From assembly GCF_023091865.1 (NCBI RefSeq), contig NZ_JAHXDI010000001.1, positions 1,302,001-1,366,000 on the forward strand: DNA of 64,000 nt, written 5' to 3'. Positions 1 through 19,128 of the stretch are shown here, piece by piece (the stretch's first letter is position 1; each line of letters starts with the position of its first letter). The notes below the pieces were generated by a model. That model saw only the letters and a list, made by a program, of their open reading frames with translations. It did not search any database and was not told where the DNA came from. Source of the stretch: Chromohalobacter moromii. Lineage in GTDB: Bacteria; Pseudomonadota; Gammaproteobacteria; Pseudomonadales; Halomonadaceae. The position numbers and the translations under genes are program-made.

Positions 1-1
1 T

Positions 2-307: not shown

Positions 308-446
308 AAGACGCCTCTGTGCTGACGCCCGGCACTGTTCGGGCGCCTTACGCGCACCACCTTGCTTTGGTTGGGGGCGGGGCGGTTTATACCGTTAGCG
401 TATTTCTTCTAGAAATGGCAAACCTGCCTGGGATGGTATTTGCCAA

Positions 447-1583: not shown

Positions 1584-1700
1584 TGCTCAACGCATGCTGG
1601 CATCTGGGCTCGGCTAGGTATTCAAGATTATTTATACGTCATGTGGCGCCAGCCCATTTGAGTTTAGGCGCGTCAGCACTCCCGTAAGTTGAGGCGAGCG

Positions 1701-2690: not shown

Positions 2691-2764
2691 TCCTAACTTT
2701 ATAAAACGATAATGCATCGACGTTTCTATTTCAGGGATCGGGCGATTTAAGGGGGGAGGGAGAA

Positions 2765-3727: not shown

Positions 3728-3808
3728 GGCAGCCACCGAATCGCTGGCGCTTGTTCAAGATCATATCCGCTATGCCCGAGCGCTGTCGGGCATCGGCCAC
3801 TCGAGAGG

Positions 3809-4966
3809 ATGCAATCGCTTATGCTAGCCAAACCGCTGAAGGTCTTACATGTCATCACCGGCTTGACCGATGGTGGTGCCGAGGACTCGCTCTACCAGCT
3901 TTGCAATAACGATCGCCACAACGTTCATCGTGTAGTGTGCCTGATGGACGCCGGACAATACGGACCACGTTTCGAGGCGGCGGGGGTCGAGGTCGTGTAT
4001 CTGCATATGCCGCCAGGCCGCGTGACGTTCTCGGGCCTGTGGCGCTTGTGGCGGACCCTGCGTGAACTCCGGCCAGATGTGGTGCAGACGTGGATGTACC
4101 ACGCCAACCTGGTGGGCGGGGTCATGGCGCGGTTAGCGGGCGTCAAGGCTATTTGCTGGGGAATCCATAACAGCAACCTGATGCCGGGGGTTACCAAGCG
4201 CAGCACGATCTGGGTCGCCAAGGCCTGCGGGGCGTTATCCCGCGTGGTGCCGAGCCGCATCGTGAGCTGTTCGCAACATGCGGTGGAAGTGCATCGCCAG
4301 CTACGTTATGCGGCCATGAAATTCGTGGTCGTGCCCAATGGCTACAATCTACTGCTACTGACCCCCGATGCCGAGGCCAGGGCGCGTGTGCGCCAGGAGT
4401 GGGGGCTCGATGATGATATGCCGCTACTCGGCATGGTGGCTCGCTTCGATCCGCTGAAGGATCATGCCAACTTGATCGCCGCCTTGGCGCAGCTCAAGGG
4501 GCTGGGCTGGGACTTTCGGTGTGCGTTGATCGGCGAGGAGGTGGATGCCGATAACGCTGAACTGGTCCAGCTATTGGAGGATTACGGCGTACGCGAACGG
4601 GTACTGTTAGTAGGGCGACGTAGCGATATTCCTGCGGTGATGAACGCGCTCGATGTGCATGTGCTGTCGTCGCTTAGTGAGGCATTCCCTAATGTGTTGT
4701 CCGAGGCAATGGCCTGCGGCACGCCGTGTGTGTCCACCGATGTCGGCGATGCTGCCTTTATCGTTGGCGATACCGGTTGGATAGTTCCACCCAGCGATCC
4801 TTCGGCCTTGGCAGATCATCTAGCTATGGCACTTGATGAATACGCGGAGGTACCAGCGTGGCAAGCGCGTAAGCAGCGCGCGCATCAACGGGTCGTCGAT
4901 TCCTTCAGCGTACAGCGCATGATCGACGGTTATAGTGCTTCTTGGCATCAGGTGTGCCACGTATGA
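3809..4966 (+). CDS. GT4-family glycosyltransferase
   Basis: About 385 residues with the GT-B architecture. The N-terminal VLHVITGLTDGGAE motif and the C-terminal SLSEAFPNVLSEAMACGTP motif mark a GT4 retaining glycosyltransferase. Two starts are possible: ATG 3809, which abuts GAGAGG, and ATG 3821, twelve bases after it; the second gives the more typical N-terminus MLAKPLKVLHVI. The stop overlaps the start of the polysaccharide deacetylase (ATGA at 4963), so the two are probably co-translated and may act on the same repeat unit. Sugar specificity is not readable. Confidence 0.85.
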   Translation: MQSLMLAKPLKVLHVITGLTDGGAEDSLYQLCNNDRHNVHRVVCLMDAGQYGPRFEAAGVEVVYLHMPPGRVTFSGLWRLWRTLRELRPDVVQTWMYHANLVGGVMARLAGVKAICWGIHNSNLMPGVTKRSTIWVAKACGALSRVVPSRIVSCSQHAVEVHRQLRYAAMKFVVVPNGYNLLLLTPDAEARARVRQEWGLDDDMPLLGMVARFDPLKDHANLIAALAQLKGLGWDFRCALIGEEVDADNAELVQLLEDYGVRERVLLVGRRSDIPAVMNALDVHVLSSLSEAFPNVLSEAMACGTPCVSTDVGDAAFIVGDTGWIVPPSDPSALADHLAMALDEYAEVPAWQARKQRAHQRVVDSFSVQRMIDGYSASWHQVCHV

Positions 4967-5997
4967 ATGCTAATTGGATGACCCGTTTGGCGCGCGCCGA
5001 AGGCGAACCGCTGCGTCCGCCGGCCTTTGTGATTTCGCTGGACTTCGAATTGCACTGGGGCATGTCGGATATCGTGACCACGCCAGAGCACCCTTATATG
5101 CGGCAATTGCTCGGCGCACGCCGTGCTGTACCGGCGATACTTGATCTTTTCCGTGAACGCCATATCCGCGCGACCTGGGCCACGGTGGGCTATCTGTTCG
5201 CCGAGGATCGCGAAACATTGACGCGTTTCTCGCCTGTTAGACGTCCACACTATGCCAATCCGGCACGTGATAACTATCGGCAGGAGATCGGTGACGACGA
5301 GGCAAGCGACCCACTGCATTACGCGCGCTCCCTGATCGATCTGATTGCGCAAACGCCAGGCCAGGAAATCGCTTCACATACCTTCTCGCATTATTACTGC
5401 TATGAAGAGGGTCAGACACCGGATGACTTCAAGGCCGATCTCGCGGCGGCAATGGCCATCGCCAAGCACGCCGGACACCAGCCGAGTTCATTGGTTTTGC
5501 CGCGCAATCAGGTCGACGAGGCCTATTTGGAACCAATGCGCGAGGCGGGCTTTCGTTGCTATCGCGGCAATCCACAGCGTGCGGGGTTCCAACGAAAGTA
5601 TCACGATGCTGCGCCGACTCGTGCACTGCGACTGATGGATAGCTACGTCAATCTGACCGGGCACCACGGCATCAAATGGCACGATCTAAAGGGCGACCCG
5701 CTGAATATTCCTGCCAGTATGTTTCTGCGTCCGCGTCGTGGGATACCGCAACTGAATGCCTTGCGACTTAGACGCATCAAGAAGGCGATGCGCCGTGCCG
5801 CCAAGCGTGGCGAGATATTTCATCTTTGGTGGCATCCACACAACTTCGGCCTGGCTACCGATGCCCATCTGCGTGACCTCGCCGCCATCATCGGTTATTT
5901 CCAGGTTCTTTCCATCGAATACGGTATGCGCTCGATGTCGATGAACGATGTACTGACGCGTCAGGAGCAGGCCTCGGTGACAGCCCCATTGACCTAG
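4963..5997 (+). CDS. Polysaccharide deacetylase (NodB-homology) family protein
   Basis: A 344-residue member of the CDA1/NodB family. SLDFELHWG near residue 25 gives the catalytic Asp pair region, SHTFSHYY (about residue 145) the H-x3-H metal-binding motif, and HLWWHPHNFG near residue 285 the late catalytic His. The family removes N- or O-acetyl groups from amino-sugar polymers or lipid-linked intermediates. No signal peptide is visible, so action on a lipid-linked or nucleotide-linked precursor in the cytoplasm is more likely than on exported polymer. ATG 4963 overlaps the preceding stop by four bases; a TTG at 4942 is less likely. Confidence 0.85.
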   Translation: MNANWMTRLARAEGEPLRPPAFVISLDFELHWGMSDIVTTPEHPYMRQLLGARRAVPAILDLFRERHIRATWATVGYLFAEDRETLTRFSPVRRPHYANPARDNYRQEIGDDEASDPLHYARSLIDLIAQTPGQEIASHTFSHYYCYEEGQTPDDFKADLAAAMAIAKHAGHQPSSLVLPRNQVDEAYLEPMREAGFRCYRGNPQRAGFQRKYHDAAPTRALRLMDSYVNLTGHHGIKWHDLKGDPLNIPASMFLRPRRGIPQLNALRLRRIKKAMRRAAKRGEIFHLWWHPHNFGLATDAHLRDLAAIIGYFQVLSIEYGMRSMSMNDVLTRQEQASVTAPLT

Positions 5998-6103
5998 CTT
6001 CCTAGGCGCTAGCCATCCACGCACCACTTGCCTTCACGACATTTGATCACTGCTTTTGATGACTACTTACCGACGCGCTTTAGCGCGAGGGCCGGGGGGC
6101 TTT

Positions 6104-6187
6104 GTCTTCAAAAACAAGTCTTCAAAAACAAGTCTTCAAAAACAAGTCTTCAACAAACGGGCCTTCAAGAGCGGACCTTCAAAACGT
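6104..6187 (+). repeat. Six-unit 14-bp tandem repeat
   Basis: Directly repeated 14-mers: three perfect copies of gtcttcaaaaacaa (6104-6145) followed by three degraded copies, each keeping a CTTCAA core. The array lies in the leader between the deacetylase and the glycosyltransferase start at 6226 and ends about 25 bases before the ribosome site. A short inverted repeat CGCGCT-TT-AGCGCG (6074-6087) stands just upstream. It is not a CRISPR (no spacers). Confidence 0.9.
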
Positions 6188-6225
6188 GCCCCGCAGATGA
6201 TCTCCACTGCAGAGGAGTTGTTTCC

Positions 6226-7371
6226 ATGAACGATAAAACGATTGTGCTGGTTTCCAACACGTCCTGGTCTCTCTACAACTTCTGCCAGGGATTTTTGAGG
6301 GCGCTAGAGAGGCGCGGTTTTCGTGTGGTGTGTCTGGTGCCCAACGACGACTATTCGCAACGCTTGCTCGATGAATTCGGCGTCACCCTGCGAAGCATGC
6401 CCATGGACGGCAAGAGCACCGCCCCTGCGCGGGAGGGGAAGTGCCTGTTCTGGCTGTATGGGCAGTTGCGCGCGCTGCGTCCCGCCTTTGTTTTCAACTT
6501 CACGGTCAAGGCGAACATCTATGCGGGATTAGCGTGCCGCGCTCTGAGAATTCCGTATGCCAATACCGTCACCGGCTTGGGGACGGCTTTCCTGCATGAC
6601 AGTCACTTATTCCGCCAAGTTCGACGGCTCTATGGCGTGGCCAATGCCGGGGCGAACAGGGTGTTTTTCCTCAACCCGGATGACCGCGAGGTCTTTGAGC
6701 GCCAAGGCATGTTGCAAAAAGTCGACTGGGGGATGTTGCCGGGCGCGGGGGTTGATGTAACGCGCTTTGCGTTTACACCGCTGCCTCAGGAAGGGCCCTT
6801 CACCTTTGTATTGATCGCACGGCTGCTGGGCGACAAGGGTGTGCGCGAGTACGTCGCGGCGGCCGTGCAGGTGCGTAGGGAAAATCCCGAAACACGATTT
6901 TTGATCGTCGGGCCCAAGGGTGTCAGCAATCGCACGGCAATTGATGACGACGAGATCGAGGCTTGGCACGAGCGGGGTGTCGTCGAATATGTCGGCGCCC
7001 AGGACGACGTGCGTCCCTGGCTCGCCCAGTCCCATGTGTTGGTATTGCCGTCCTACCGTGAAGGCTTACCGACCACCGTATTGGAGGCGGGCGCGATGGG
7101 GAGGCCAACTATCGCCACTGATGTGCCGGGATGTCGCCATGCCGTGGCCGATGGAGAAACCGGTTGGTTGTGCCGCGTCAAGGACGTCGAGTCGCTGGCG
7201 GCGCGTATGCGCGCGTGCCTGGTAATGACGCCGTGGGCGCTTTCCCGCGTAGGAGTAGCAGCGCGCCGGCGTGCGGAGAAAGAGTTCTCGCAGGACATCG
7301 TCGTAATGGGATACCTGGCCTGCCTGGAAAGCGGCCTGATGAGTCACCAACGCGTAAAAATGGAGGCATGA
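6226..7371 (+). CDS. GT4-family glycosyltransferase, PglA-like
   Basis: About 381 residues from ATG 6226, which follows AGAGGAG at a good distance; longer readings would translate the tandem repeat and are rejected. The N-terminus VSNTSWSLYNFCQGFLRAL, the central TVTGLGTAF and GAGVDVTRF, and the donor-site region REGLPTTVLEAGAMGRPTIA are typical of PglA/WbpX-type GT4 enzymes that add HexNAc residues to undecaprenyl-diphosphate-linked sugars. The stop overlaps the galE start region (ATGATG at 7368), so transfer and UDP-sugar supply are coupled. Confidence 0.85.
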   Translation: MNDKTIVLVSNTSWSLYNFCQGFLRALERRGFRVVCLVPNDDYSQRLLDEFGVTLRSMPMDGKSTAPAREGKCLFWLYGQLRALRPAFVFNFTVKANIYAGLACRALRIPYANTVTGLGTAFLHDSHLFRQVRRLYGVANAGANRVFFLNPDDREVFERQGMLQKVDWGMLPGAGVDVTRFAFTPLPQEGPFTFVLIARLLGDKGVREYVAAAVQVRRENPETRFLIVGPKGVSNRTAIDDDEIEAWHERGVVEYVGAQDDVRPWLAQSHVLVLPSYREGLPTTVLEAGAMGRPTIATDVPGCRHAVADGETGWLCRVKDVESLAARMRACLVMTPWALSRVGVAARRRAEKEFSQDIVVMGYLACLESGLMSHQRVKMEA

Positions 7372-8492
7372 TGACGATTTTAGTGACAGGCGGCGCAGGC
7401 TACATCGGCTCGCATATGGTGCTGAGGCTCATAGAGGCCGGCCACGACGTGGCCGTGATCGACAACCTCTGTAATGCCTCGCGTGAGTCGCTGGAGCGCG
7501 TCTCACAGTTGACCGGCAAAGAAGTTGTCTTCATCGAGGGCGACATACGCGACCGTTCGCTATTGGATTACGTCTTTGCGGATTTCGAGATCAGCGATGT
7601 GTTGCACTTTGCTGGGCTCAAATCCGTGGGAGAAAGCGTCAACGAGCCATTGGCGTATTTCGAGAACAATGTAGCGGGAACCATCACGCTGTGTCAGGCC
7701 ATGACGGCGGCGGGGGTCTTCCGACTGGTGTTCAGTTCTTCGGCGACGGTGTACGGCGATGCCACGCGCATGCCGTTGAGCGAAAGCGCGCCCACCGGAC
7801 AGCCGACCAACGCCTACGGACATTCCAAGCTGATGGTCGAAGAGGTGCTGCGGAAGCTGGCGCGGTCTGACCCACGCTGGTCGATCGCACTGCTGCGCTA
7901 CTTCAATCCCGTGGGTGCGCATCCCAGCGGGCTCATCGGAGAGGACCCATCGGGCAAGCCCAATAACCTGCTGCCGTTTATCTCCCAAGTGGCAATCGGG
8001 CGACTACCGGCGCTATCGGTCTTCGGCGATGACTATCCGACGCCGGACGGTACTGGCGTGCGCGACTATATCCATGTCATGGATCTGGTCGAGGGACATC
8101 TGGCGGCGATGCGCGTATTGACAGACCGTTCAGGGGCGAATGTCTGGAACTTGGGAACCGGTCAGGGGTATTCCGTGCTCGAAATGGTGCGCGCTTTCGA
8201 GATGATCTCGCAGCGTGATGTGGCGTATCGCATCGTGCCGCGCCGCGATGGGGATATCGCCGAATGCTGGGCCGATGCCTCGCTGGCAGCAAATGAGTTG
8301 GGTTGGAAGGCTCAGCGTGGTCTGACCGAGATGATCACCGATACCTGGCGCTGGCAGTCGAACAATCCCGAAGGCTATCCAAGCAAACGCGTGGTGAGAC
8401 GTGACAGCCTCGGCAAGCCCGCCGGCGTGGCCAATGCCTTGCCGAAGATCTACCTCATTGATACCGCACGCGCCAACCGCGCTGCCTCGTAA
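7371..8492 (+). CDS. galE: UDP-glucose 4-epimerase
   Basis: Extended SDR epimerase that interconverts UDP-Glc and UDP-Gal (or the GlcNAc/GalNAc pair). The NAD-binding GGAGYIGSHMV is at residues 7-17, the catalytic Ser region is SSSATVYGD and the Y-x3-K motif is YGHSK. The 373-residue product exceeds the usual ~338 residues: after the normal end near WRWQSNNPEGY it has about 35 extra residues. Both ATG 7368 and 7371 are possible; GGAGG at 7362 suits 7371. It overlaps the previous glycosyltransferase and probably provides its donor. Confidence 0.93.
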   Translation: MTILVTGGAGYIGSHMVLRLIEAGHDVAVIDNLCNASRESLERVSQLTGKEVVFIEGDIRDRSLLDYVFADFEISDVLHFAGLKSVGESVNEPLAYFENNVAGTITLCQAMTAAGVFRLVFSSSATVYGDATRMPLSESAPTGQPTNAYGHSKLMVEEVLRKLARSDPRWSIALLRYFNPVGAHPSGLIGEDPSGKPNNLLPFISQVAIGRLPALSVFGDDYPTPDGTGVRDYIHVMDLVEGHLAAMRVLTDRSGANVWNLGTGQGYSVLEMVRAFEMISQRDVAYRIVPRRDGDIAECWADASLAANELGWKAQRGLTEMITDTWRWQSNNPEGYPSKRVVRRDSLGKPAGVANALPKIYLIDTARANRAAS

Positions 8493-8643
8493 CGACCTAA
8501 CCAGAGAAGACCAGGCGTGGCCATCCAGCCACGCTCTAATACTTGTAGTTCGTGTTGTCTGAATAGCTCGTGTTGCATGAATAGTGACGCCTTCCCATAG
8601 GTGAGGTGGGCTTTTGATGCTATACAAAGTAAAGGAATAAGTC

Positions 8644-9738
8644 GTGAAGATTTGTATTGTTACACCCTCGTTTTCAGGAGGAGGGGCCGAAAGGATAGCT
8701 GTCAATTTGGCAAATTTTTACGCTAAAAACGGGTTGGATGTCTGTCTAGTTGTTTTTGATGGAGTCGGTCCATATCGTAGGCAAATAAATAGCTCCATAA
8801 AGTTGATTGATCTTAATGTTAAACGGTTGCGCTATAATGCTTGGTTGAAGTTGAGAAAAGCCATAAAAGATGAATCTCCAGAATATATTCTATCTGTTAT
8901 GAGAGGCGCAAATATCTTCGTCGGGCTATCTCTTCCAATAATTAATAATATAAGAGTTACGTTTCGTGAAGCTAATACAATGGAAGCTTTCAGACGTATA
9001 CCCTGGCGTCGCAGGTTGATTCATAAACTTCTCATGAAGTTTTCCTATCGACGTGCTGATATTGTTATTGCAAACTCTATGGACACCAAAAAAGACCTGA
9101 TAGTTAATAAGATAGTCCAAGAAAGCCATGTGGAAGTTATTGGTAATCCGGTGATTAATGATGATTTAAATGAAAAGGCTGGAGATGTTTTATGTCATGA
9201 GTGGTTGTCTTCCCCTGATGTTCGTGTTGTTTTGCACGTTGGTCGTCTTGATGTCCAAAAAAACCAAGCGCTTTTGTTAAATGCATTTTCTTTGGCTGTC
9301 AAATCGGTTCCTGATCTTAAGCTTGTCATTCTTGGAGAAGGTGAAGAAAAGAAGAATTTAGAAAAGCTATCAAGTGAGCTGGGTGTTGAGGATAATGTTG
9401 ATTTTGTTGCCTTCCAAGATAATCCCTATCCGTATTACAAGGCGGCAGATTTATTTGTTTTGTCTTCTGACTGGGAAGGGTTCGGAAATGTAATAGTAGA
9501 AGCATTGGCATGTGGTACGCCCGTTATTAGTACGGATTGTCCCGGTGGTCCAAGGACCATACTTGCTGATGGCAAGTATGGCGTATTAGTACCTTGTGGT
9601 GATGCAGAACGACTTTCATTGGAAATGGTTAACCATATAAATAATGTGGGCGCGTGGAACTTTGAAGAACTTAAGAAGCGTGCCAATGAGTTTACAGTTG
9701 AAGCTGTTGCAAAAAAATATTTGGAAGCAAGCCGTTAA
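8644..9738 (+). CDS. GT4-family glycosyltransferase (AT-rich)
   Basis: A 364-residue GT4 enzyme starting with a GTG at 8644 after AAAGGAATAA. The N-terminal TPSFSGGGAERIAVNLANFY and the C-terminal DWEGFGNVIVEALACGTPVI motifs are clear, and the product resembles the GC-rich glycosyltransferase at 447 along its length. Codon use is strikingly AT-rich compared with galE just upstream, which marks the start of an imported block that runs through the flippase and the asparagine-synthase-like gene. Specificity is unknown. Confidence 0.85.
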   Translation: MKICIVTPSFSGGGAERIAVNLANFYAKNGLDVCLVVFDGVGPYRRQINSSIKLIDLNVKRLRYNAWLKLRKAIKDESPEYILSVMRGANIFVGLSLPIINNIRVTFREANTMEAFRRIPWRRRLIHKLLMKFSYRRADIVIANSMDTKKDLIVNKIVQESHVEVIGNPVINDDLNEKAGDVLCHEWLSSPDVRVVLHVGRLDVQKNQALLLNAFSLAVKSVPDLKLVILGEGEEKKNLEKLSSELGVEDNVDFVAFQDNPYPYYKAADLFVLSSDWEGFGNVIVEALACGTPVISTDCPGGPRTILADGKYGVLVPCGDAERLSLEMVNHINNVGAWNFEELKKRANEFTVEAVAKKYLEASR

Positions 9739-9748
9739 ATTATTGATT

Positions 9749-9961
9749 TTATGCTCTTGAATGACTGAGCAGGCTGTCTGCCGGTTCAGTTCTTGTGATT
9801 CGCTCTTCGTTCAGCTCGATACGGACAGAGCCGCTGTAGGCGGTGTCCAAAGCCAGTACTTCACATATGGCGAGTGACTCTCCTGAGGCGTGTTTTGGTG
9901 GACATGCTGATTCTACAAGATAAAAAAATCGGTACCTTCTTTTCTTTCTCGGCCCAGTGGG
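9749..9961 (-). pseudogene. Possible C-terminal coding remnant, unidentified
   Basis: The gap between the glycosyltransferase and the flippase contains a minus-strand frame of about 70 codons with no ATG, ending in a TAA at 9749-9751. It would encode a protein-like stretch with segments such as RKKRRYRFFYLVES, SGESLAICEVLALDTA and GSVRIELNEERITRTE. Its composition differs from the AT-rich genes on both sides. It may be the tail of a gene or transposase displaced when the AT-rich block arrived; I do not recognise the family and it may be chance. Confidence 0.25.
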
Positions 9962-9987
9962 TCAAACGGGCTTTCTGATAGGCAGAG

Positions 9988-11316
9988 ATGTGCATGCTGA
10001 ATCTAGTTATTACATTGCGACAGAAAACCCATGAAGTATGGCGCAGCCGCTTTGTAAGAAGTGTTGCGGTGGTTGCCACCGGAACGGCAGGAGCGCAGGC
10101 GATCACGATGGCTTTTTCACCGCTGATTACTCGCCTTTATGGTCCTGAAGCATACGGTGTGCAAGGTACTTTTATTGCAATATTGGGTGTGGCAACTCCT
10201 TTCAGTGCTCTTGCCTATCCGATTTCTGTCGTTTTGCCACGACGAGATGAAGAAGCCATTGGGCTTCTACGATTGAGTGCCTATATCTCCGTCTTTATTG
10301 CGACCTTAATAGCGGTTGGCTTGTGGTTATGGGGTGCTGTAGCTATTTCGCTGTTGGAAATAGAGAGCGTGGGAAAGTTGATCTACTTGCTACCCGTAGC
10401 GATATTATTCGCTGCTTGGATGCAGATGGCTCAGCAGTGGTTGATACGCAAAAAAGAATTCGGAGTGATTGCTCGTTCCGCCTTAGCTAATTCCGGACTA
10501 CTGAATAGTGCCAGGGCCTTGCTTGGCTTCGTTCACCCCACCGGCGCTGTACTCATTGTGTTGGCATCTTTGGGAAGTGTATTGCACGCATTGCTGATGT
10601 GGATAGGAATTCGGAAGCGCACTACGATAAATCGCAGTGAACCTTTAGAGGCCCCCAACCTGGGCATCATCGAACTGGCCCATCGCCATCGCGATTTCCC
10701 ACTGTACCGGGCTCCACAGATTACGATCAACGCCGCATCGCAAAGTTTACCAGTGTTGATGTTGGCTGCTTTCTTTGGTCCGTCCACTGCAGGATTCTAC
10801 ATGCTCAGCACAATGGTGATGGGGATGCCAACTACTTTGATTGGAATGGCAGTTAGCGATGTTTTTTATGCGCGAATAACGGAAGCGGCACATAATGGCG
10901 AGAGTCTTTCTAGACACATTTTACGAGCTACAGGTGTGCTAGCTGCAATTGGCATCGTGCCCTTTTCAATTGTTGTATTGTTTGGCCCTTGGCTATTTAG
11001 TTTGGTGTTTGGAGCTGAGTGGGGTGTGGCGGGAGAATATGCTCGATGGTTGGCTTTTTTCTTCTTTTTTAATTTAGCCAATAAGCCAAGCAACGCTGCA
11101 GTTCCTATTTTGGGTATTCAGCGTGGCTTGCTTTTTTATGAGGTCTTGAGCACCGGTGGTAAAGTTTCTGGTTTTTTGCTCGGATTCTATTGGCTAAATA
11201 GCGACATCTGGGCAGTCGCAATATTTTCTATCATTGGTATTTTTGCTTATAGCGGAGTGATGCTGTGGATTTATTTGTGTGCGGTGAGGTGGGACCGTGA
11301 TGCAAGAATCAGTTAA
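9988..11316 (+). CDS. Wzx-type polysaccharide flippase
   Basis: A 442-residue integral membrane protein with about 12 predicted transmembrane segments, of the polysaccharide transporter (PST/MOP) family. The N-terminal GTAGAQAITMAFSPLITRLYGPEAYG motif region (here quoted in part: FSPLITRLYGPEAYG) is typical of RfbX/Wzx proteins, which flip undecaprenyl-diphosphate-linked repeat units to the periplasm. A second Met at 9994 is an alternative start. It lies in the AT-rich block and is the only clear Wzx in the window, so with the Wzc kinase and the EpsG-like polymerase it completes a Wzx/Wzy-dependent system. Confidence 0.85.
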   Translation: MCMLNLVITLRQKTHEVWRSRFVRSVAVVATGTAGAQAITMAFSPLITRLYGPEAYGVQGTFIAILGVATPFSALAYPISVVLPRRDEEAIGLLRLSAYISVFIATLIAVGLWLWGAVAISLLEIESVGKLIYLLPVAILFAAWMQMAQQWLIRKKEFGVIARSALANSGLLNSARALLGFVHPTGAVLIVLASLGSVLHALLMWIGIRKRTTINRSEPLEAPNLGIIELAHRHRDFPLYRAPQITINAASQSLPVLMLAAFFGPSTAGFYMLSTMVMGMPTTLIGMAVSDVFYARITEAAHNGESLSRHILRATGVLAAIGIVPFSIVVLFGPWLFSLVFGAEWGVAGEYARWLAFFFFFNLANKPSNAAVPILGIQRGLLFYEVLSTGGKVSGFLLGFYWLNSDIWAVAIFSIIGIFAYSGVMLWIYLCAVRWDRDARIS

Positions 11317-11429: not shown

Positions 11430-13199
11430 ATGTCCAAAGTGTTATACGCTTGCAGCCGAAACTCTGGTTTCAATGCCAGTACCAAAGAAAAGCTATATGA
11501 TGTTTGCAATCATCTTGTCCCGGATAATATTGCGGTACCTAAACCTCATGTAGTACGTGTCGAAGATGATTTGGCATATGCTGTATGCATGGATAGTGGT
11601 GCCCTCCAAGAGTCGGGAGGGAGCTTGCTTCTGGGGTTTCTGTATGAAAAAAACAAAGTGAGTTGGGATAAGCCTAAAACATGCTATCCAGATGGTAATT
11701 ATGCCTTGTTTAGGGTCGATGAGGACGAGATTGAAGTGGTTAGCGATTGTGTTGGGACTAGAACGGTCTGGTATTACCATGATGAAGAGGTATTTATTGC
11801 ATCAACGTCGCAACGCGCAATAATTATGTTCCTTGGTGCATTTGAATTTGATGAGAGAGTGATTCCGTGGATGCTGTCGACAGGCTCGTTGGGTCCGCAG
11901 TTTTCTTGGGATAAAAGCATTAAGCGCCTGCCGGTCGATAGTTATTTGTCGCTTGAAAAGAAATCATGGCGTGCCTCTATCACCCAAAGACCTATTAATT
12001 TTTCCGTGGTTAATCGTAAGAGGGAAGGTCATAGAAGAGTATTGACTGATGCGATTAGTCAAACTATGGAGTCTCTTGATGGTATTGACTTTGAGCGATG
12101 GGTGCTACCGCTGTCCGGGGGGTATGATAGTCGCGGGATATTGTTATTTATAAAAAATACAATAGGGGCTCCAGATAATCTGAAAACGATAACATGGGGC
12201 TTAGAGAAATCTCAGTATGAAAAATACAATGATGCCTATGTGGCTAAGGAGCTAGCACACTCTGTGGGAGTTCAGCATAAATACTATCATACAGATATTT
12301 CTCCCGAGCCACTCGAGGTGGTTTTCGATCGATTCCTTTTTTGCAGTGAAGGTCGTGTTGATCATATTGCTGGGTACATGGATGGTATGGATATCTGGAA
12401 GCAGCTCCATGACGAAGGAGTAGACGGGACAATTAGAGGAGATGAAAGTTTTGGAGAGTTGCCTGCTTCATCAGAATTAGATGTCAGGAACTTAGTTGGT
12501 CTTGGATTGTGTTGCGACTACAAGAATTTATCGCAATTTACTGAAGATTTTGCGCCTTTCCATCAAGAGGTTCCGGTTGAGTTGCATAAAAAAGAGGGGG
12601 AAACGCTTTATGCATGGCGGGATAGAGTCCACCAAGAATATCGTATGCCAACCGTGTTTGCTGCATTGTCAGATATCAAGTTTTCGTATTTGGAAGAGAT
12701 TAACCCCTTGCTTTCCAGGTCAATTCTGAGTGTTGTTAGAAGCTTGCCTGATGACCTCAGAGAAGACAAGTGTTTGTTTAAGAGTATAGTTGAGTCTATG
12801 GAGGGGGGTGTTCCATTTGCCCTTAAAAGCGCAAATGCTAATCCTAAAGACATACTCCGCGAGAAAGGGTGTGTCGATCTTATGAAATCAGAGATAAATA
12901 GTAGTTATTCAGCTGGCTTGTTCGGCCCTGATTTTGCAAATAGAGTTATCAGTGAAATAAAAGTTGGAAATGATGGGTCGAGAAGATGGGGTGTGAAAGG
13001 ACTGGTGAGTTCGCTTTTACCTGCCTCCATAAAAAGCCGGCTGCGTAAAACGGTAGTTCGCCGATCAGTCGATGGCAACGTTCTTGCATTTAGAGTTTTT
13101 ATGATTATAAAAATGCATAAAATGTTGACCTCTGACGCTTCGAGAGCGGCTAACTTTCAACGCCGTGCAACAGACGAGGCACGCGCTACTATTAGTTAA
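11430..13199 (+). CDS. Asparagine-synthase-like amidotransferase in a polysaccharide locus
   Basis: A 589-residue protein whose central part has the ATP-pyrophosphatase P-loop LSGGYDSRG (about residue 228) of the asparagine synthase C-terminal domain. The first ~200 residues resemble the glutaminase-side fold in length and position, but the start is MSKVLYACS, without the catalytic Cys2 of glutamine-hydrolysing enzymes, so it probably uses ammonia or another amine, or performs a different adenylation. AAGGAGAAG precedes the ATG. In glycan clusters such proteins amidate uronic acids or join amino acids to sugars; that role here is an inference. AT-rich, unlike the downstream genes. Confidence 0.75.
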   Translation: MSKVLYACSRNSGFNASTKEKLYDVCNHLVPDNIAVPKPHVVRVEDDLAYAVCMDSGALQESGGSLLLGFLYEKNKVSWDKPKTCYPDGNYALFRVDEDEIEVVSDCVGTRTVWYYHDEEVFIASTSQRAIIMFLGAFEFDERVIPWMLSTGSLGPQFSWDKSIKRLPVDSYLSLEKKSWRASITQRPINFSVVNRKREGHRRVLTDAISQTMESLDGIDFERWVLPLSGGYDSRGILLFIKNTIGAPDNLKTITWGLEKSQYEKYNDAYVAKELAHSVGVQHKYYHTDISPEPLEVVFDRFLFCSEGRVDHIAGYMDGMDIWKQLHDEGVDGTIRGDESFGELPASSELDVRNLVGLGLCCDYKNLSQFTEDFAPFHQEVPVELHKKEGETLYAWRDRVHQEYRMPTVFAALSDIKFSYLEEINPLLSRSILSVVRSLPDDLREDKCLFKSIVESMEGGVPFALKSANANPKDILREKGCVDLMKSEINSSYSAGLFGPDFANRVISEIKVGNDGSRRWGVKGLVSSLLPASIKSRLRKTVVRRSVDGNVLAFRVFMIIKMHKMLTSDASRAANFQRRATDEARATIS

Positions 13200-13372: not shown

Positions 13373-14245
13373 ATGCGTTCGGTCATAAAGCTGGTAAGGC
13401 CACACCAGTACCTCAAGAATGGTTTTGTGCTAGTCGGGCCGTTATTTGCCCATCAGTGGGATCTCTTCACACTCTCTCAAGCACTGTTGGCTTTCTTGGC
13501 CTTCTGCTGCATGGCGAGTGCGGTGTATGTACTCAACGACATCATGGACATCGAGGCGGATCGAGCCCACCCGGTGAAGTGTCGTCGTCCCTTGCCGAGT
13601 GGTGCCATTTCCACACGTGTGGCCAAACGACTGCTTGGTGGGTTGATAGCCGCATCGATGTTGCTGGCACTGTTGGTTAGCGGCTGGGTCGCTCTGTTTG
13701 TGGCAACCTACTTTGTCATCAACATCTTTTACTCCTGGCGCCTCAAGCACATCGTGATCCTCGATGTATTCTTGATCTCGTCTGGCTTCATGCTGCGGAT
13801 TCTGGCTGGCACGGTGGGGTTAGGCATCGCGCCATCTGCGTGGCTGCTGCTGTGCGGTTTGATGGTCACGCTGTTTCTGGGCTTCTCCAAGCGACGCGCC
13901 GAACTACTGATGCTTGAGAGTAACGAGCACTGCAACGGAGGGCTGACCCGACGTGTATTGGATGACTATAGCCCGGCCATGCTCGAGCAGTTCATCGCTG
14001 TCACGGCTGCATGCACGGTGCTTGCCTACGGCCTCTATACTGTGTCCCCGAAGACGATCGCCCTACATGGCAGTGATGGATTGATCTACACCTTACCCTT
14101 CGTGGTGTATGGCATCTTTCGTTATCTTTACCTGCTGCATCAAAAGTCCAAAGGCAATGATACGGCCAAAGACCTGGTTATCGACCGCCATCTGTTGGCC
14201 ACGGTCGTGGGCTGGGTGGGGTCGACTCTGTGGGTCCTAACATGA
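13373..14245 (+). CDS. UbiA-family polyprenyl-phosphate phosphoribosyltransferase candidate
   Basis: About 290 residues with eight to nine membrane segments. The first Asp-rich motif NDIMDIEADRAHPVKCRRPL (residues ~58-77) is that of UbiA prenyltransferases, in the N-D-x3-D-x3-D-R-x-HP form seen in decaprenyl-phosphate 5-phosphoribosyltransferase (Rv3806c type), which joins PRPP and polyprenyl phosphate. A second Asp-containing loop, LEQFIAV with nearby LDDYSP, fits motif two. The DprE1- and DprE2-like genes downstream strongly favour this over quinone synthesis. ATG 13373 gives the normal N-terminus MRSVIKLVRPHQYLKNG; an upstream GTG at 13298 would add 25 residues. The stop overlaps the next start (ATGA 14242). 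Confidence 0.82.
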   Translation: MRSVIKLVRPHQYLKNGFVLVGPLFAHQWDLFTLSQALLAFLAFCCMASAVYVLNDIMDIEADRAHPVKCRRPLPSGAISTRVAKRLLGGLIAASMLLALLVSGWVALFVATYFVINIFYSWRLKHIVILDVFLISSGFMLRILAGTVGLGIAPSAWLLLCGLMVTLFLGFSKRRAELLMLESNEHCNGGLTRRVLDDYSPAMLEQFIAVTAACTVLAYGLYTVSPKTIALHGSDGLIYTLPFVVYGIFRYLYLLHQKSKGNDTAKDLVIDRHLLATVVGWVGSTLWVLT

Positions 14246-15213
14246 CGGCGGCAGTGAGTTACCTGGAAGGGTGGCGGCTGCGGGCGCTGATCCTCTCCAT
14301 CGTGGCCGCCACCGCCGGCTATTTGGCGTTTTCCCTGTGGGGAGGCTGGAATGAGGTGGTAGCCGCCTTCGTGCAGATTGGCCTGGTAGGCACGCTGATC
14401 GCCCTGATCTTGTCGCTGATGAACTACGCCCTGCGGTTCTGTCGCTGGCAGCTCTACTTGTCGCAGCTGGGGCATCGCGTAGCCTGGCCGCCGAGTCTGC
14501 GAATCTATCTCAGTGGCTTTGCCCTGACCACCACGCCCGGTAAGGCGGGGGAGGCTTTCAGGGGCGTACTCCTCAAGCAGCGCGGGGTACCGTTCCCGGT
14601 GACCTTCGCTGCCTTCATCAGCGAGCGACTTTCCGACCTCGTTGCCATCGTGCTGCTCACACTGGTGGGGCTGGCCCAATACCCCCAGGCGCGGAGCATT
14701 GTGCTTGCCGGGGTACTGGGGATCGTGGTGGTGCTGGCTTGCCTGTCGAGCAAGACCCTGCTGGACCGGCTGCATCGTTGGGCCTCGGCTCGCCAGGGCA
14801 AGCTGATGGCTTTGGTTACCCATGTCAGCGAGATGCTGGGGGGCGCGCGCCGCTGCCATCGCCCCGACCTTCTAGGCATAGCCACCGTGATCAGCGTGAT
14901 TGCTTGGGGGGCGGAGGCGCTGGCTTTCTATTGGATGCTGGGCTGGCTCGATGCCGACATCTCGCTGTCGTTCGCCATCTTCGTTTATGCGCTGTCGATG
15001 CTGGCCGGCGCCCTGAGTTTCCTACCGGGCGGTCTGGGGAGCGCTGAAGCGGTGATGGTCTCGCTGCTGGTCCTCAAGGGCATGACTATGCCCGTCGCCA
15101 TCGCGGCGACCGTATTCATTCGCCTGGCAACGCTGTGGTTTGCCGTACTAATCGGCCTGGTGGCCTTGATCCGCAGCCGTCATGGTGAAGCGCCTGCGGA
15201 GGAGACCGCATGA
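14242..15213 (+). CDS. UPF0104 / LPG-synthase-TM-like membrane protein, flippase candidate
   Basis: 323 residues, about eight to nine membrane segments, with the family pattern NYALRFCRWQLYL, GKAGEAFRGVLLKQRG and FLPGGLGSAEAVM. The family (PF03706: AglD, MprF membrane domain, UPF0104) is implicated in handling or flipping isoprenoid-linked or lipid substrates. ATG 14242 overlaps the UbiA stop, and its own stop overlaps the oxidase start (ATGA 15210). Position between the phosphoribosyltransferase and the epimerase pair suggests it moves the polyprenyl-phospho-pentose across the inner membrane; that is inference. An in-frame GTG at 14230 is less likely. Confidence 0.75.
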   Translation: MTAAVSYLEGWRLRALILSIVAATAGYLAFSLWGGWNEVVAAFVQIGLVGTLIALILSLMNYALRFCRWQLYLSQLGHRVAWPPSLRIYLSGFALTTTPGKAGEAFRGVLLKQRGVPFPVTFAAFISERLSDLVAIVLLTLVGLAQYPQARSIVLAGVLGIVVVLACLSSKTLLDRLHRWASARQGKLMALVTHVSEMLGGARRCHRPDLLGIATVISVIAWGAEALAFYWMLGWLDADISLSFAIFVYALSMLAGALSFLPGGLGSAEAVMVSLLVLKGMTMPVAIAATVFIRLATLWFAVLIGLVALIRSRHGEAPAEETA

Positions 15214-16511
15214 CCGCACCACGTTCATGGAACCGTCTGCCGCGTGTGGCTCCCGACGCCGTCCATGCGTTAACCCAACGCTACGCTGGCGTGCCGGATG
15301 GTTTGCCAAGGCCATTACTGGCCCATGGTAATGGGCGTAGCTATGGCGATGTGTGCCTGACCGAACAGGGCACGCTGCTGCTTACCCGAGGGCTCGACCG
15401 CTTTATCGAATTTGACCCGCAGCAGGGGATACTGCGCTGTGAGGCAGGCGTCACCCTAGCCGAGCTCCTCGCACTGGTGGTGCCCCAAGGCTGGTTCTTG
15501 CCCAGCACGCCGGGGACGCGCTTGGCCACGGTGGGTGGTGCCGTGGCCAACGACGTGCATGGCAAGAACCACCATGCCGTAGGCAGCTTCGGCCATCACG
15601 TGCGCGCCCTGGAGCTGTGGCGCAGCGATGGCAGCATTATTGCGTGCCGGCCCGAGGACGACAACGGCTGGTTTTCGGCGACTATCGGCGGGCTGGGCCT
15701 GACTGGGCTGATTCGCTGGGTCGAGCTGCAGCTGATGCCTATCCAGAACCCCTGGATGTGGGTCGAGTCACAGCGCTTCGCCAATCTCGACGAGTTTTGG
15801 GCACTCAACCGTCGTGCTGAGGCCCGCTGGCCCTATACCGTGGCCTGGATCGACTGCTTGGCCAAAGGCAAGGCGCAGGGCCGGGGGATATTGCTGGCCG
15901 GCCAGCATGCGGCGGCACAGGCTGAGCTGCCGACGTTCAAGGAAAGCGGCAAGCGGATCCCCGTCGATCCACCATTCTCGTTGGTCAATGGGCTGAGCCT
16001 GCGCGCCTTCAATACTCTTTATTACCGGCAGCCAGTCAAGCCCCAGGGGGCGCTGACTCATTATGTGCCGTACTTCTACCCGCTGGATGCCATTCAAGGT
16101 TGGAACCGCATTTATGGGCGGCGTGGTTTCTACCAGTACCAGTGCGTGATTCCGCCCCGCGAGGCCGAGGCCGCTACCGCGGCGCTGCTCGATACCATCG
16201 CCAGGCGCGGGGAGGGGTCGTTTCTTGCCGTGCTCAAGACCTTCGGTCGTAAGCCGTCGCTGGGCATGCTCTCGTTTCCGCGCCCCGGCACCACTTTGGC
16301 CCTGGACTTTCCCAATCGGGGCGACAAGACCCTGCGCCTTCTCGAGGAGTTGGATGCCATCGTGCGCGAGGCCGGTGGCACCCTCTACCCCGGCAAGGAC
16401 GCCCGTATGCCGGCGAGCTTGTTTCAGGCTGGCTATCCCCAATGGGAAGCCTTCAGCGCTTACGTCGATCCCGGCTTTTCTTCCCGTTTCTGGCAGCGAG
16501 TGACCCCATGA
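15210..16511 (+). CDS. DprE1-like FAD-dependent polyprenyl-phosphoribose 2'-oxidase
   Basis: A 433-residue VAO-type flavoprotein. The N-terminal half has HGNGRSYGD (residues ~36-44), PSTPGTRLATVGGAVAND and HGKNHHAVGSFGHHV, the FAD-binding signature of DprE1; the C-terminal half has the substrate-domain sequences FYQYQCVIP and TLYPGKDARM with the conserved active-site Lys. Known DprE1 oxidises decaprenyl-phosphoryl-ribose at C2'. At the place of the benzothiazinone-reactive Cys387 of Mycobacterium tuberculosis DprE1 (before DFP) this protein has Ala364, by my alignment from memory. Start and stop both overlap neighbours by four bases. Confidence 0.88.
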   Translation: MTAPRSWNRLPRVAPDAVHALTQRYAGVPDGLPRPLLAHGNGRSYGDVCLTEQGTLLLTRGLDRFIEFDPQQGILRCEAGVTLAELLALVVPQGWFLPSTPGTRLATVGGAVANDVHGKNHHAVGSFGHHVRALELWRSDGSIIACRPEDDNGWFSATIGGLGLTGLIRWVELQLMPIQNPWMWVESQRFANLDEFWALNRRAEARWPYTVAWIDCLAKGKAQGRGILLAGQHAAAQAELPTFKESGKRIPVDPPFSLVNGLSLRAFNTLYYRQPVKPQGALTHYVPYFYPLDAIQGWNRIYGRRGFYQYQCVIPPREAEAATAALLDTIARRGEGSFLAVLKTFGRKPSLGMLSFPRPGTTLALDFPNRGDKTLRLLEELDAIVREAGGTLYPGKDARMPASLFQAGYPQWEAFSAYVDPGFSSRFWQRVTP

Positions 16512-17263
16512 ACTCTCTTAATCGTGTGATCCTCTTTGGGGCGACGTCCGCCATTGCCGAGCAGACCGCCCGGCAACTGGTTGCCCAGGGCGCCTCCCTC
16601 TACTGCGTGGGACGCAACCGCGACAAGCTGATGGCGCTTATTGATGATCTCAAGGTAAGGGCCAGCGACCACCAGCAAATCGATGGGGATGTGGCCGATC
16701 TGACCGACAGCGATCAGCATGCTCGGCTTATTGACGCTGGTGAACGAGCGCTGGGCGGCATCGATGGCGTGCTGATTGCCCACGGCACTCTGCCGAACCA
16801 GCAGGCCTGCCAGGCGGATGTTACCCAGACACGCCAGGAGATCGAGACCAACGCCCTGAGCGTGATCAGTCTGCTGACCCTGCTGGCCAACCGCCTCGAG
16901 CAGCAGCAGTACGGCGTGATCGCCGTGATCAGCTCGGTAGCCGGCGATCGGGGGCGGCAGAGCAACTATGTCTATGGCGCCGCCAAGGGCATGGTCACGT
17001 TGTTTCTCCAGGGCCTACGCAACCGGCTGGCCAAGAGCAATGTCGACGTGGTGACCATCAAGCCCGGTTTTGTCGATACCCCTATGACCGCCGAGCTCGA
17101 TAAGGGTGGGCCGCTGTGGGCCAAGCCCGAACAGATCGCCAAGGGCATCATCAAGGCCATGCAGAAGGGCAAGGGCGAAGTGTACCTGCCATGGTTCTGG
17201 TGGGGCATCATGCTGATCATCAAGCATATCCCTGAAGCTATCTTCAAACGGATGTCGTTATGA
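16508..17263 (+). CDS. DprE2-like SDR, polyprenyl-phospho-2-ketopentose reductase
   Basis: A 251-residue short-chain dehydrogenase. The cofactor motif is LFGATSAIAEQTARQL (residues ~7-22), AHGTLPNQ replaces the usual NNAG, ISSVAGDRGR carries the catalytic Ser and YVYGAAKG the Tyr-x3-Lys. The VKPGFVDTPMT segment and the C-terminal membrane-proximal WGIMLIIKHIP tail are as in DprE2, which reduces the 2'-keto intermediate to the arabino form using NAD(P)H. ATG 16508 overlaps the oxidase stop; its stop overlaps the HAD phosphatase start. With its partner it would convert polyprenyl-phospho-ribose to polyprenyl-phospho-arabinose. Confidence 0.87.
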   Translation: MNSLNRVILFGATSAIAEQTARQLVAQGASLYCVGRNRDKLMALIDDLKVRASDHQQIDGDVADLTDSDQHARLIDAGERALGGIDGVLIAHGTLPNQQACQADVTQTRQEIETNALSVISLLTLLANRLEQQQYGVIAVISSVAGDRGRQSNYVYGAAKGMVTLFLQGLRNRLAKSNVDVVTIKPGFVDTPMTAELDKGGPLWAKPEQIAKGIIKAMQKGKGEVYLPWFWWGIMLIIKHIPEAIFKRMSL

Positions 17264-17898
17264 ATCAGTTTCCTGAGTTCGATGCTCGTCCCGTCGCGTT
17301 TTTTGACTTCGATGGAACCTTGACGACCGGTGATACGTTGATGCCGTTTCTCAAGTTTGTCGTCGGCACACCGGCCTACTATGGCAAGCTTTCGCTGCTG
17401 AGCCCGGTACTCGGTGCTTATTATGCGAAGCTACTGCGTAACGACATCGCCAAGCAAATCGTGCTCAAACAGTACTTAGGGGGGTACCACATTGATGAGC
17501 TCTTTACACTTGGAGAGCGTTTCAGTGAAGAGGTGATCCCCACCATGCTGCGCCCAGAAGGCATGGAGCGTCTCAGATGGCACCAGGCCCAAGGCCATGA
17601 GTGCGTGCTGGTGAGTGCCTCGATGAATGTTTACCTGACGTCTTGGGCTAAGCGAGAGCATTTTTCGGAGGTTATCTGCACAGCGCTAGAAGTTGGCAAG
17701 AAGGGCCATGTCTCAGGGAGGATTCAGGGAAAGAATTGTCATGGGGAAGAGAAGGTTAGGCGAATAGTTCTTTCTAATTTTAATAGTAGAAGATTGACAT
17801 ATGCGTATGGGGACTCTAAGGGGGACTTGCCTATGCTTAAGTTGGTAGATCATGGGTTTGTTTTCGAAAGGGGAGTTTTTTCTGTTTCTTCTGTTTAG
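17260..17898 (+). CDS. HAD-IB family phosphatase
   Basis: A 212-residue HAD-superfamily subfamily IB hydrolase. The nucleophile motif is FFDFDGTLTTGD (residues ~14-25), motif II is VLVSASMN and motif IV is YGDSKGDLPML. Family members (SerB-like, PGP/CicA type) remove phosphate from small molecules or lipid-linked sugars. Placed in frame with the arabinose cassette, it is the natural candidate for dephosphorylating polyprenyl-phospho-5-phosphoribose, the step otherwise missing. Composition changes inside the gene: GC-rich until about 17690, AT-rich after it, as if two alleles recombined within the coding sequence while keeping the frame. Confidence 0.82.
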   Translation: MNQFPEFDARPVAFFDFDGTLTTGDTLMPFLKFVVGTPAYYGKLSLLSPVLGAYYAKLLRNDIAKQIVLKQYLGGYHIDELFTLGERFSEEVIPTMLRPEGMERLRWHQAQGHECVLVSASMNVYLTSWAKREHFSEVICTALEVGKKGHVSGRIQGKNCHGEEKVRRIVLSNFNSRRLTYAYGDSKGDLPMLKLVDHGFVFERGVFSVSSV

Positions 17899-17907
17899 GT
17901 GGGAAGA

Positions 17908-19128
17908 ATGGATATTAAAACAAATGCTTGGGGTGTTAGGGATGCCGGGAAAATAAGTTTTTTCCTGGGATGCTCTATGGTGGCGCTGATTGTCTGGATC
18001 AGATCGAATCCCTATCTTTTCATAAATGGAACGAGTTACTTAAGCAATTGGAATTACACTCATTACCTTTTTAATTATGACGATGGATTTGTAAAGAGAG
18101 GGGTTGTCGGGGATTTTCTCAAGACCCTTGTGGGCCATGTTTCATATGACTTTGTGAGCTTTGTCTCATATGTATCCCTCGGGGGGCTTTCCTTTTTGTT
18201 TTTGTTGTTTTTTTCTAAAGCTTACATAGGTCATGGGGAGAGGTTTGGTGCCTTTTTGCTCATGGTCTTTGCTGCTGCTTCGCCTGCGACTTTGCAGCAC
18301 TTTGCTTTCGATGTTGGAAGGTTTGATCTGATTATATACATGATTTTTATATTGATTGTTTTGTCAATAAATTTTTTGGCTGAAAGGAGTGTTTACGTAA
18401 CTTTTGCTATTGTTGTTGCAGGGCTTTCTTTGTCAGTCTTAGTGCATGAGGCTGCACTTTTTATGATACTGCCTCTTTCCCTTGTTTTTTGGAACTACAT
18501 CGACTCCTCCAGAAAGGGTGTTGTTTTGCAAGGTCTTGCTTTTGTAGTTATATTTTTCATTACGTTTTTGGTTTCTACGCATGGAGAGTATAGTGCGCTT
18601 GGGTTCGAAGATCATCTGGAAGCCTTGAGAAGTATTTATGGTGATAGAGTGGTGAGTAGTTCTCTTGTTGTTATTCATCACTCTTCTCTTGAGGAAAATG
18701 TTAGTAGGACAATAAGGCTTGGACTTAGCTTCCCACGCTTGGTGCATCATGGAGCTCTTGTTTTCTTTATGATGCCTTTTATGTATATGATGTATAAGCT
18801 TTACATGTCAATGCGTGGCCAGATTGATTTAAAGGTTAAGCTTATTTTTATAGCGTCGTTATCCCCTTTGGCCCTTTATCCCTTGGGGCAAGATCATTTT
18901 AGGTGGTGGTCATTGACTATAACAAATATTATACTGGCAATATGCTTTATTGTGTTGCGAGATAAAGTCGTTCGAGATGGTGTGCTGTCATTTCTCGAAG
19001 ATAGGGTGAAGCTGGTTTCCTTTGTTGTATTGTTTGGCCTTGTTTCTGGTCCTTTGTGTGTTACAGAAAGCTTTGATGTGGTTGTATATACAGCAAAATT
19101 TGTGGGATCTGTTATGCCTAAGTTATAG
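17908..19128 (+). CDS. Multi-spanning membrane protein, candidate glycosyltransferase or polymerase
   Basis: About 406 residues, strongly AT-rich, with roughly ten membrane segments. Soluble hallmarks are the early YLFNYDDGFVKRGVVGDFL and LVHEAALFM, and LGQDHFRWWSL near residue 335. I do not recognise a named family with certainty; the DDGFVKRG/VHE/DHFRWW pattern recurs in polysaccharide loci of unknown function and the topology fits a GT-C-like enzyme that uses a polyprenyl-phospho-sugar. Coming directly after the arabinose cassette, it could be the transferase that consumes polyprenyl-phospho-arabinofuranose. ATG 17908 follows AGGTGG; a GTG at 17899 is an alternative. Confidence 0.6.
   Translation: MDIKTNAWGVRDAGKISFFLGCSMVALIVWIRSNPYLFINGTSYLSNWNYTHYLFNYDDGFVKRGVVGDFLKTLVGHVSYDFVSFVSYVSLGGLSFLFLLFFSKAYIGHGERFGAFLLMVFAAASPATLQHFAFDVGRFDLIIYMIFILIVLSINFLAERSVYVTFAIVVAGLSLSVLVHEAALFMILPLSLVFWNYIDSSRKGVVLQGLAFVVIFFITFLVSTHGEYSALGFEDHLEALRSIYGDRVVSSSLVVIHHSSLEENVSRTIRLGLSFPRLVHHGALVFFMMPFMYMMYKLYMSMRGQIDLKVKLIFIASLSPLALYPLGQDHFRWWSLTITNIILAICFIVLRDKVVRDGVLSFLEDRVKLVSFVVLFGLVSGPLCVTESFDVVVYTAKFVGSVMPKL

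Follow-up and report, generated by a model that had tools for sequence, protein, structure and literature searches.

What does the six-gene unit beside an exopolysaccharide locus of Chromohalobacter moromii make, and where is its product used? The unit lies in a window of 64,000 nucleotides (positions 1302001-1366000 of contig 1; genome of 3.47 Mb), the window being the whole stretch analysed, and coordinates below are positions in it. An earlier note had read the unit as a complete cassette for polyprenyl-phospho-D-arabinofuranose. In the explanation that we consider probable as a whole, a five-gene core would make polyprenyl-phospho-D-arabinofuranose, its UPF0104 membrane protein would move the lipid-linked sugar to the periplasmic face, and the last protein would transfer D-arabinofuranose (D-Araf) onto the exopolysaccharide encoded directly upstream. 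The cassette would then be an accessory decoration module in which the core is constant and the final membrane protein exchangeable. The last protein belongs to an unnamed family, called family G here; labels such as G001 and L048 denote compared genomes and compared loci respectively. The six genes are the following.

13373..14245, plus strand: predicted UbiA-superfamily polyprenyl-phosphate 5-phosphoribosyltransferase, forming polyprenyl-phosphate-ribose-5-phosphate from phosphoribosyl pyrophosphate (PRPP) and polyprenyl phosphate (PF01040, NF008977, PDB match, tree)
14230..15213, alternative ATG start 14242, plus strand: UPF0104/PF03706 membrane protein, candidate flippase for a lipid-linked sugar (PF03706, TIGR00374)
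15210..16511, plus strand: DprE1-like flavin adenine dinucleotide (FAD) oxidase, predicted to oxidize C2 of polyprenyl-phosphate-ribose (PF01565, NF053785 below its cut-off, PDB matches)
16508..17263, plus strand: DprE2-like short-chain dehydrogenase/reductase (SDR), predicted to convert the 2-keto intermediate to D-arabinose (PF00106, NF005489, PDB match)
17260..17898, plus strand: HAD-IB phosphatase, predicted to take the 5-phosphate off polyprenyl-phosphate-ribose-5-phosphate (PF12710, TIGR01490)
17899..19128, plus strand: multi-spanning protein of family G, candidate arabinofuranosyltransferase (no Pfam, NCBIfam or PDB match; co-occurrence with DprE1)

The gene set and its coupling were as the earlier note had described them: five genes joined by four ATGA overlaps and then a multi-spanning protein, with open reading frames (ORFs) at the positions listed. 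The overlaps lie at the junctions UbiA/UPF0104 (if the start is ATG 14242), UPF0104/DprE1, DprE1/DprE2 and DprE2/HAD. The HAD/G junction has none; HAD stops with TAG, and GTG opens the G frame at the next base. Of the 11 further family genomes fetched, 10 (G001, G012, G025, G029, G053, G083, G092, G093, G137 and G145) showed the order UbiA-UPF0104-DprE1-DprE2-HAD by tblastn; the sole exception was G007, which has the fused HAD-UbiA type (UbiA 33% identical). The same five-gene order was found in five named records outside the family (L050, L051, L052, L053 and L057; in L057, 1.7 kb separate UbiA from UPF0104), and the first four genes alone in L048, L054 and L056. Some ORF starts in the fetched loci were mechanically too long, and tblastn positions were used instead; L049 and L132 (G083) have the same gene layout and were taken as one record, except that both rows were kept among the 19 stand-alone-UbiA loci discussed below. 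Because the order recurs in the family genomes and in the outside records, it is not due to chance.

UbiA scored 266.9 bits against NF008977, the NCBIfam model for decaprenyl-phosphate phosphoribosyltransferase (cut-off 234), versus 29.1 bits against quinone synthase (UbiA_proteo) and 32.4 bits against heme o synthase. Its best PDB match was 8j8j (E 2e-32), which is Rv3806c of Mycobacterium tuberculosis (PMC11127046). Asn73 and Asp77 of Rv3806c, which bind a Mg ion (PMC10994848), correspond to N55 and D59 of the window protein; NDIMD is aligned to NDVRD, and the NDxxD motif is kept. In a tree of 36 rows, the window protein grouped first with eleven further UbiA proteins of the stand-alone cassette type (97/98) and next with Rv3806c (99/100), whose branch is long and subject to the tool's warning of long-branch joins. 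Eight quinone-type paralogues of family genomes fell outside this group. An operon of a quinone- or heme-type prenyltransferase that merely resembles the arabinose pathway could share PF01040, which is common to the entire UbiA superfamily; the gap between 266.9 and about 30 bits and the tree placement contradict such an operon, and we regard it as extremely improbable. The earlier note had named placement among quinone or heme prenyltransferases as fatal to its reading; the protein was instead of the decaprenylphosphoryl-5-phosphoribose synthase type, and PRPP-dependent activity is predicted for it.

The HAD protein exceeded the cut-off of TIGR01490 (NCBIfam; 148.3 against 98.3 bits) and carries a DFDGT motif at residue 16; its single-sequence structure model (mean predicted local distance difference test score 32.9) was too poor for use. 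Its proposed role in the pathway is suggested by loci in which a HAD domain and UbiA are fused. DprE1 loci were surveyed as the best 80 of 536 confirmed relatives. A UbiA domain was present in 72 of these 80, the other eight having none above 50 bits, and in 59 of the 72 it carried an N-terminal extension of at least 180 residues. A DLDGT motif occurs in more than 90% of the rows of the aligned extensions. Profile-profile comparison (hhalign) of the stand-alone HAD with the N-terminal domain of the HAD-UbiA fusions gave a probability of 96.1% (E 3.2e-9, 22% identity); when the profile of the stand-alone HAD was simply searched against the fused extensions, none matched at 15 bits. The window would therefore represent, on this comparison, the split form of a HAD and UbiA pair that is usually fused, the fused HAD domain having diverged. 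One such fusion, ORF15 of Citrobacter youngae, converted PRPP to farnesyl-phosphate-ribose in vitro; when Asp18 of its HAD domain was removed, a phosphorylated product appeared and some dephosphorylation persisted (PMC11127046). The earlier note's assignment of HAD as the pathway phosphatase thus gains from the fusions and from ORF15, although the stand-alone and the fused HAD types are no more than distant relatives. The pair of a UbiA-type lipid-phosphate-ribose synthase and a HAD phosphatase, as in the three-component systems, was found in the window, its HAD being of a type diverged from the fused one.

The oxidase and the reductase were less sharply assigned by profiles. The DprE1-like protein scored 343.9 bits against NF053785, under the cut-off of 500, and is filed as DprE1-like and not as that equivalog; the DprE2-like protein scored 162.1 bits against NF053786, under the cut-off of 250 for the DprE2 equivalog, and 310.1 bits against NF005489, above the cut-off of 267 for this SDR family without a named function. 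Of the profile searches proposed in the earlier note, those for UbiA and PF03706 thus succeeded above cut-off, and those for DprE1 and DprE2 found matches but stayed under the NCBI equivalog cut-offs. Each of the nine top PDB matches of the oxidase bears the name DprE1 or decaprenylphosphoryl-ribose oxidase (best E 2.6e-69). The best PDB match of the reductase was 21gq_C, decaprenylphosphoryl-2-keto-erythro-pentose reductase (E 2.3e-27; runner-up 2.5e-17). A tree of 26 FAD oxidases placed mycobacterial DprE1 on one side together with 20 DprE1-like proteins, that of the window among them (99/99), and five rows of other FAD oxidases from the same genome on the opposite side; two of these five had zero distance between them and probably represent a single gene, and the matching oxidase locus L002 gave no row. 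The oxidase thus did not fall outside the DprE1 clade, the other placement named as fatal in the earlier note.

Residues of the oxidase bear on a further alternative, that the product is another lipid-linked pentofuranose, either D-ribose or an epimer formed through altered DprE1/DprE2 specificity. The equivalents of Y60, H132, K134 and K418, which we take to be the DprE1 active-site residues with a catalytic role, were invariant in all 21 aligned rows. The position of C387, presumably the residue attacked by covalent benzothiazinones, is Ala and that of N385 is Thr in all 20 non-mycobacterial rows (the protein of window 15210-16511 and 19 others). These two changes and the sub-threshold equivalog scores speak for another pentose, as does the existence of UbiA-HAD systems for ribose and xylose (PMC11127046). 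The invariant active-site positions and the solved DprE2 as best match of the reductase point the other way, and DprE1/E2 homologues were described in clusters for Araf-containing glycans (Kelly et al., 2024; PMC11127046). A product other than D-arabinose is in our judgement quite unlikely. Synthesis of polyprenyl-phospho-D-arabinofuranose by the five-gene core is very probable from these homologies, and the donor pathway of the earlier note stands on the UbiA score and tree, the DprE1 tree, and HAD through the fusions and ORF15.

The core resembles the mycobacterial pathway (Rv3806c, DprE1 and DprE2) in its three enzyme families, with UbiA and DprE1 on the same side of the trees. According to PMC11127046, mycobacteria have Rv3807c, which is not a HAD protein, where the window has HAD, and Rv3789 of the SMR family where the window has UPF0104. 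In addition, the cassette here is accessory, and its last protein has no sequence match to solved chains. The HAD-UbiA fusion loci of Xanthomonas, Lysobacter, Corallococcus and others likewise have the synthase beside DprE1 and mostly also DprE2; they differ in the fused phosphatase and in UPF0104 which, where present, mostly precedes UbiA. Two HAD-UbiA fusions that were scanned matched NF006088. On plasmids, UbiA matches were found in 101 records and DprE1 matches in 83, all below 60% identity; the viral contigs searched held no relative of UbiA. DprE1-like genes were also seen on 37 Rhizobium plasmid records, where surface glycans or arabinosylated Nod factors are possible roles. Arabinosylated Nod factors occur in Azorhizobium.

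The UPF0104 protein exceeded the cut-offs of both PF03706 (160.9 bits; gathering 33.4) and TIGR00374, a flippase-like model (101.9 bits; cut-off 43.2). A flippase function has been proposed for the UPF0104/PF03706 family on the basis of MprF (PMC5898192). UPF0104 is the second gene in all 19 stand-alone-UbiA loci. No MATE protein was found by Pfam among the six cassette proteins; a PF03706 protein is present instead. The Wzx encoded upstream was considered as donor flippase and is less likely: behind wzc, the cassette-bearing G093 encodes a different Wzx, and the cassette-less G075 also encodes one. Since Wzx varies among genomes regardless of the cassette, UPF0104 is left as the constant flippase candidate, and we lean towards a role for it in flipping lipid-linked D-arabinose. 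Where PMC11127046 compares the flippases of pentofuranose systems, direct evidence is lacking.

The acceptor was approached through the surroundings of the cassette. Wza, Wzc and a sugar-phosphate transferase are encoded just upstream of the window, and the window continues as follows.

1..11316, plus strand: backbone exopolysaccharide locus, comprising the wzc end, glycosyltransferases, EpsG-like protein (below cut-off), acyltransferase, deacetylase-like protein, epimerase and Wzx (family matches)
11430..13199, plus strand: asparagine-synthase-like gene, 589 amino acids (weak NCBIfam match only, no Pfam match)

All 10 genomes of the genus were compared, anchored on the downstream gene at window 21467-22711. 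The cassette was found in five (the window, G001, G025, G053 and G093). The order wza, wzc, glycosyltransferase, EpsG-like, acyltransferase, glycosyltransferases, epimerase is common to cassette-bearing genomes (the window, G001, G025 and G093) and to the cassette-less G075, G085 and G064; the G053 stretch starts at the first glycosyltransferase, with wza and wzc outside it. Between the epimerase and GGDEF genes, G075 and G085 have no ORF of more than 180 amino acids, and G064 has the asparagine-synthase-like gene and a 251-amino-acid ORF. G041 and G100 end at contig edges with the locus outside, and were scored as cassette-less by the UbiA search alone. The backbone locus exists without the cassette, and we therefore infer that the shared exopolysaccharide locus has the cassette as an accessory module for decoration.

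The adjacent exopolysaccharide is the likely acceptor, to judge from gene position: wherever the genus carries the cassette (five genomes), the same glycosyltransferase and epimerase genes precede it. Transfer to a pilin, lipopolysaccharide or another glycan has something in its favour, as outside the genus the five-gene unit sits in other gene neighbourhoods, and in Pseudomonas paraeruginosa the D-Araf donor serves type IV pilins (PMC12369383); against the constant position within the genus, we hold it to be unlikely. The asparagine-synthase-like gene, present in all five cassette-bearing genomes and also in cassette-less G064, is probably a member of the polysaccharide locus and not of the donor pathway; that its product amidates a sugar acid of the polysaccharide is a guess. 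Separately, a low-GC pair of glycosyltransferase and Wzx genes at window 8644-11316 occurs only in G000, G001 and G025, and the different Wzx behind wzc of G093 and G075 marks exchange within the locus.

The last ORF matched no Pfam or NCBIfam family at E 0.001 and no PDB entry, and no member of family G had a convincing Pfam or NCBIfam match (best E 0.027) or a match to solved chains. An alignment of the protein with 11 relatives spans about 400 residues, in which Y60, G63, R67, H134, H183, E184, D332 and R335 are invariant. Family G was found in 9 of the 293 genomes of the order and DprE1 (E <=1e-40) in 58, and all nine G carriers had DprE1 (hypergeometric 2.7e-7). Outside its own genus the overlap was 7 of 7 (hypergeometric 7.1e-6), the carriers belonging to five genera besides its own; counted per genus it was 5 of 5, versus 34 of 117 genera (p 0.0017). 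As a control, relatives of the window Wzx were found in 21 of 189 order genomes, 8 of the 21 with DprE1, the DprE1 status being taken from the 293-genome search on the assumption that both searches draw on the same 293; EpsG, with 2 carriers in 293, was too rare to inform. In a class sample of 369 genomes, G occurred besides its own genome in G534, G611 and G752, all three with a phosphoribosyltransferase match of at least 140 bits; NF008977 matches of at least 116 bits were present in 80 of the 369 (hand count from the table). Neither viral contigs nor plasmids held a relative of G. Because G co-occurs with DprE1, it is likely a user of lipid-linked arabinose, transfer being the role that we propose.

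Two G relatives have neighbours of some interest. In G269 (L145, 7572-10385) the gene is directly behind that of a 525-amino-acid protein that weakly matches terminal beta-(1->2)-arabinofuranosyltransferase (E 7.4e-8, well short of the cut-off). In G232 (L142, 9029-12408) one gene separates it from that of a MATE-family transporter; MATE is the flippase type of the Citrobacter pentofuranose system (PMC11127046), and this MATE protein may equally be a drug exporter.

Behind the constant core, the position held by G in the window is occupied by different proteins in different genomes. These slot proteins fall into nine groups with no BLAST similarity among groups at E 1e-3: G itself (the window, G025 and G093); a protein of 390 or 426 amino acids (G001 and G053); one group each in G083, G092, G029 and L051; one in G012 and L053; one in G137 and G145; and one in L052 together with a G249 protein that is located behind UPF0104. 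Several non-G slot proteins have an acidic-aromatic motif after the first hydrophobic stretch, presumably as in GT-C enzymes, and two match PMT_2 over the cut-off. The profile of G showed no relation to the profiles of two other slot groups (probability about 0.1%), nor did those two groups match each other despite a common GDE motif; since two groups sharing that motif failed to match, the comparison is weak and provides no evidence of unlike folds. Of the DprE1 loci, 66 had DprE2 and sufficient sequence beyond it; a membrane-rich ORF was found within 2.5 kb in 15 of these, of which four are of the split type (L049 and L051-L053) and one is spurious (L055). Within the genus, identity is 94-99% for UbiA to DprE2, 82-90% for HAD and, where present, 81-84% for G. 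The GC content declines along the cassette, being 64% in UPF0104/DprE1, 49% in HAD and 40% in G, as would suit an exchanged cassette end. In G001 (L128, 6216-8831) two slot proteins stand in tandem, a 390-amino-acid version of the 426-amino-acid protein of G053 and then G, perhaps the trace of a recent swap.

Several findings weigh against the proposed reading, in addition to the two equivalog scores under cut-off. The stand-alone and fused HAD domains are connected solely through the profile-profile comparison. UPF0104 is absent beside most fused HAD-UbiA loci, lying directly upstream in only 20 of the 59 (hand count from the table). L050 and L057 have the five-gene core and no membrane protein directly behind HAD. 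G has no detectable relation to known glycosyltransferases or to the two slot groups compared, and the acidic residue of its first loop is not invariant, being present in 10 of 12 rows at position 61. The genus-level p-value is based on just five genera. G752 has no DprE1 match, G611 a weaker one (182 bits), and in G181, which has DprE1, a UbiA match of this kind is missing. In the fetched regions, the distant G relatives of G181, G204, G232, G269, G288 and G311 do not adjoin a cassette. Finally, G001, G137, G145 and G249 have another cassette membrane protein, and G may not be the sole or main transferase; in G137 and G145 the G relative, 39-40% identical to that of the window, lies on the opposite strand beside the cassette, and in G249 G is inside a rearranged cassette.

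These points feed one further alternative, in which the donor is made, and G is a polymerase, an extra flippase or a protein of some other second function, arabinose being attached by an enzyme encoded elsewhere. The missing match to known transferases would fit it, as would the second membrane proteins, that of G249 matching PMT_2 over the cut-off. On the other side, G is the sole slot candidate in G000, G025 and G093, it co-occurs with DprE1 even where unlinked, and its neighbour in G269 has the arabinofuranosyltransferase resemblance noted above. This alternative appears rather doubtful, and the balance tips modestly towards G as the candidate transferase that attaches D-Araf; as an unnamed family, G is a good arabinofuranosyltransferase candidate. 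A bolder extension has about an even chance: G would found a new family of transferases using polyprenyl-phospho-D-Araf, and the slot would work like a cartridge, unrelated transferases replacing one another beside an unchanging donor core that has UPF0104 for its donor flippase, so that new surface glycans arise.

The earlier note had also called it unusual to have every step in one coupled unit. This is not supported, as the pathway was already published for Gram-negative bacteria, and DprE1 is present in 58 of the 293 order genomes. Gram-negative D-Araf donor synthesis was described in Pseudomonas PA7/Pa5196 (Harvey, 2011, cited through PMC12369383). For side chains of ribofuranose and xylofuranose, Kelly et al. 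(2024) described systems of UbiA/HAD, flippase and GT-C, and they called the strategy widespread (PMC11127046). The Pseudomonas cluster (PSPA7_6245-6251 with TfpW; Harvey, 2011, and Kus, 2008, cited through PMC12369383 and PMC11127046), compared by description and not by sequence, shares D-Araf donor synthesis on a genomic island; it differs in its acceptor, type IV pilin, and in that tfpW belongs to the pilin locus and is separated from the donor genes. The three-component systems of C. youngae O1/O2 (PMC11127046) share a UbiA-type synthase with HAD, a flippase and a membrane transferase, and decorate a finished backbone. The phosphatase is a separate gene in the window; the flippase is MATE there versus the UPF0104 candidate here, and the transferase is GT136 (GT-C) there versus a multi-spanning last protein without a profile match here. 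Searches of the open literature for Halomonas with arabinofuranose and polysaccharide, and for UPF0104 with this pathway, turned up no paper that seems to give an account of this instance. New here are the cassette as an accessory module within a genus, the constant core with a nine-group slot, and the tie of family G to DprE1.

The genus thus offers a natural experiment, with sister genomes that carry the same exopolysaccharide locus with and without a predicted D-arabinose cassette, and a constant donor core beside varied membrane proteins. The constant UPF0104 gene is a testable donor-flippase candidate. If G is a transferase, its genome-wide link to DprE1 would give an unnamed family a substrate, and the slot may be a route to more arabinofuranosyltransferases.

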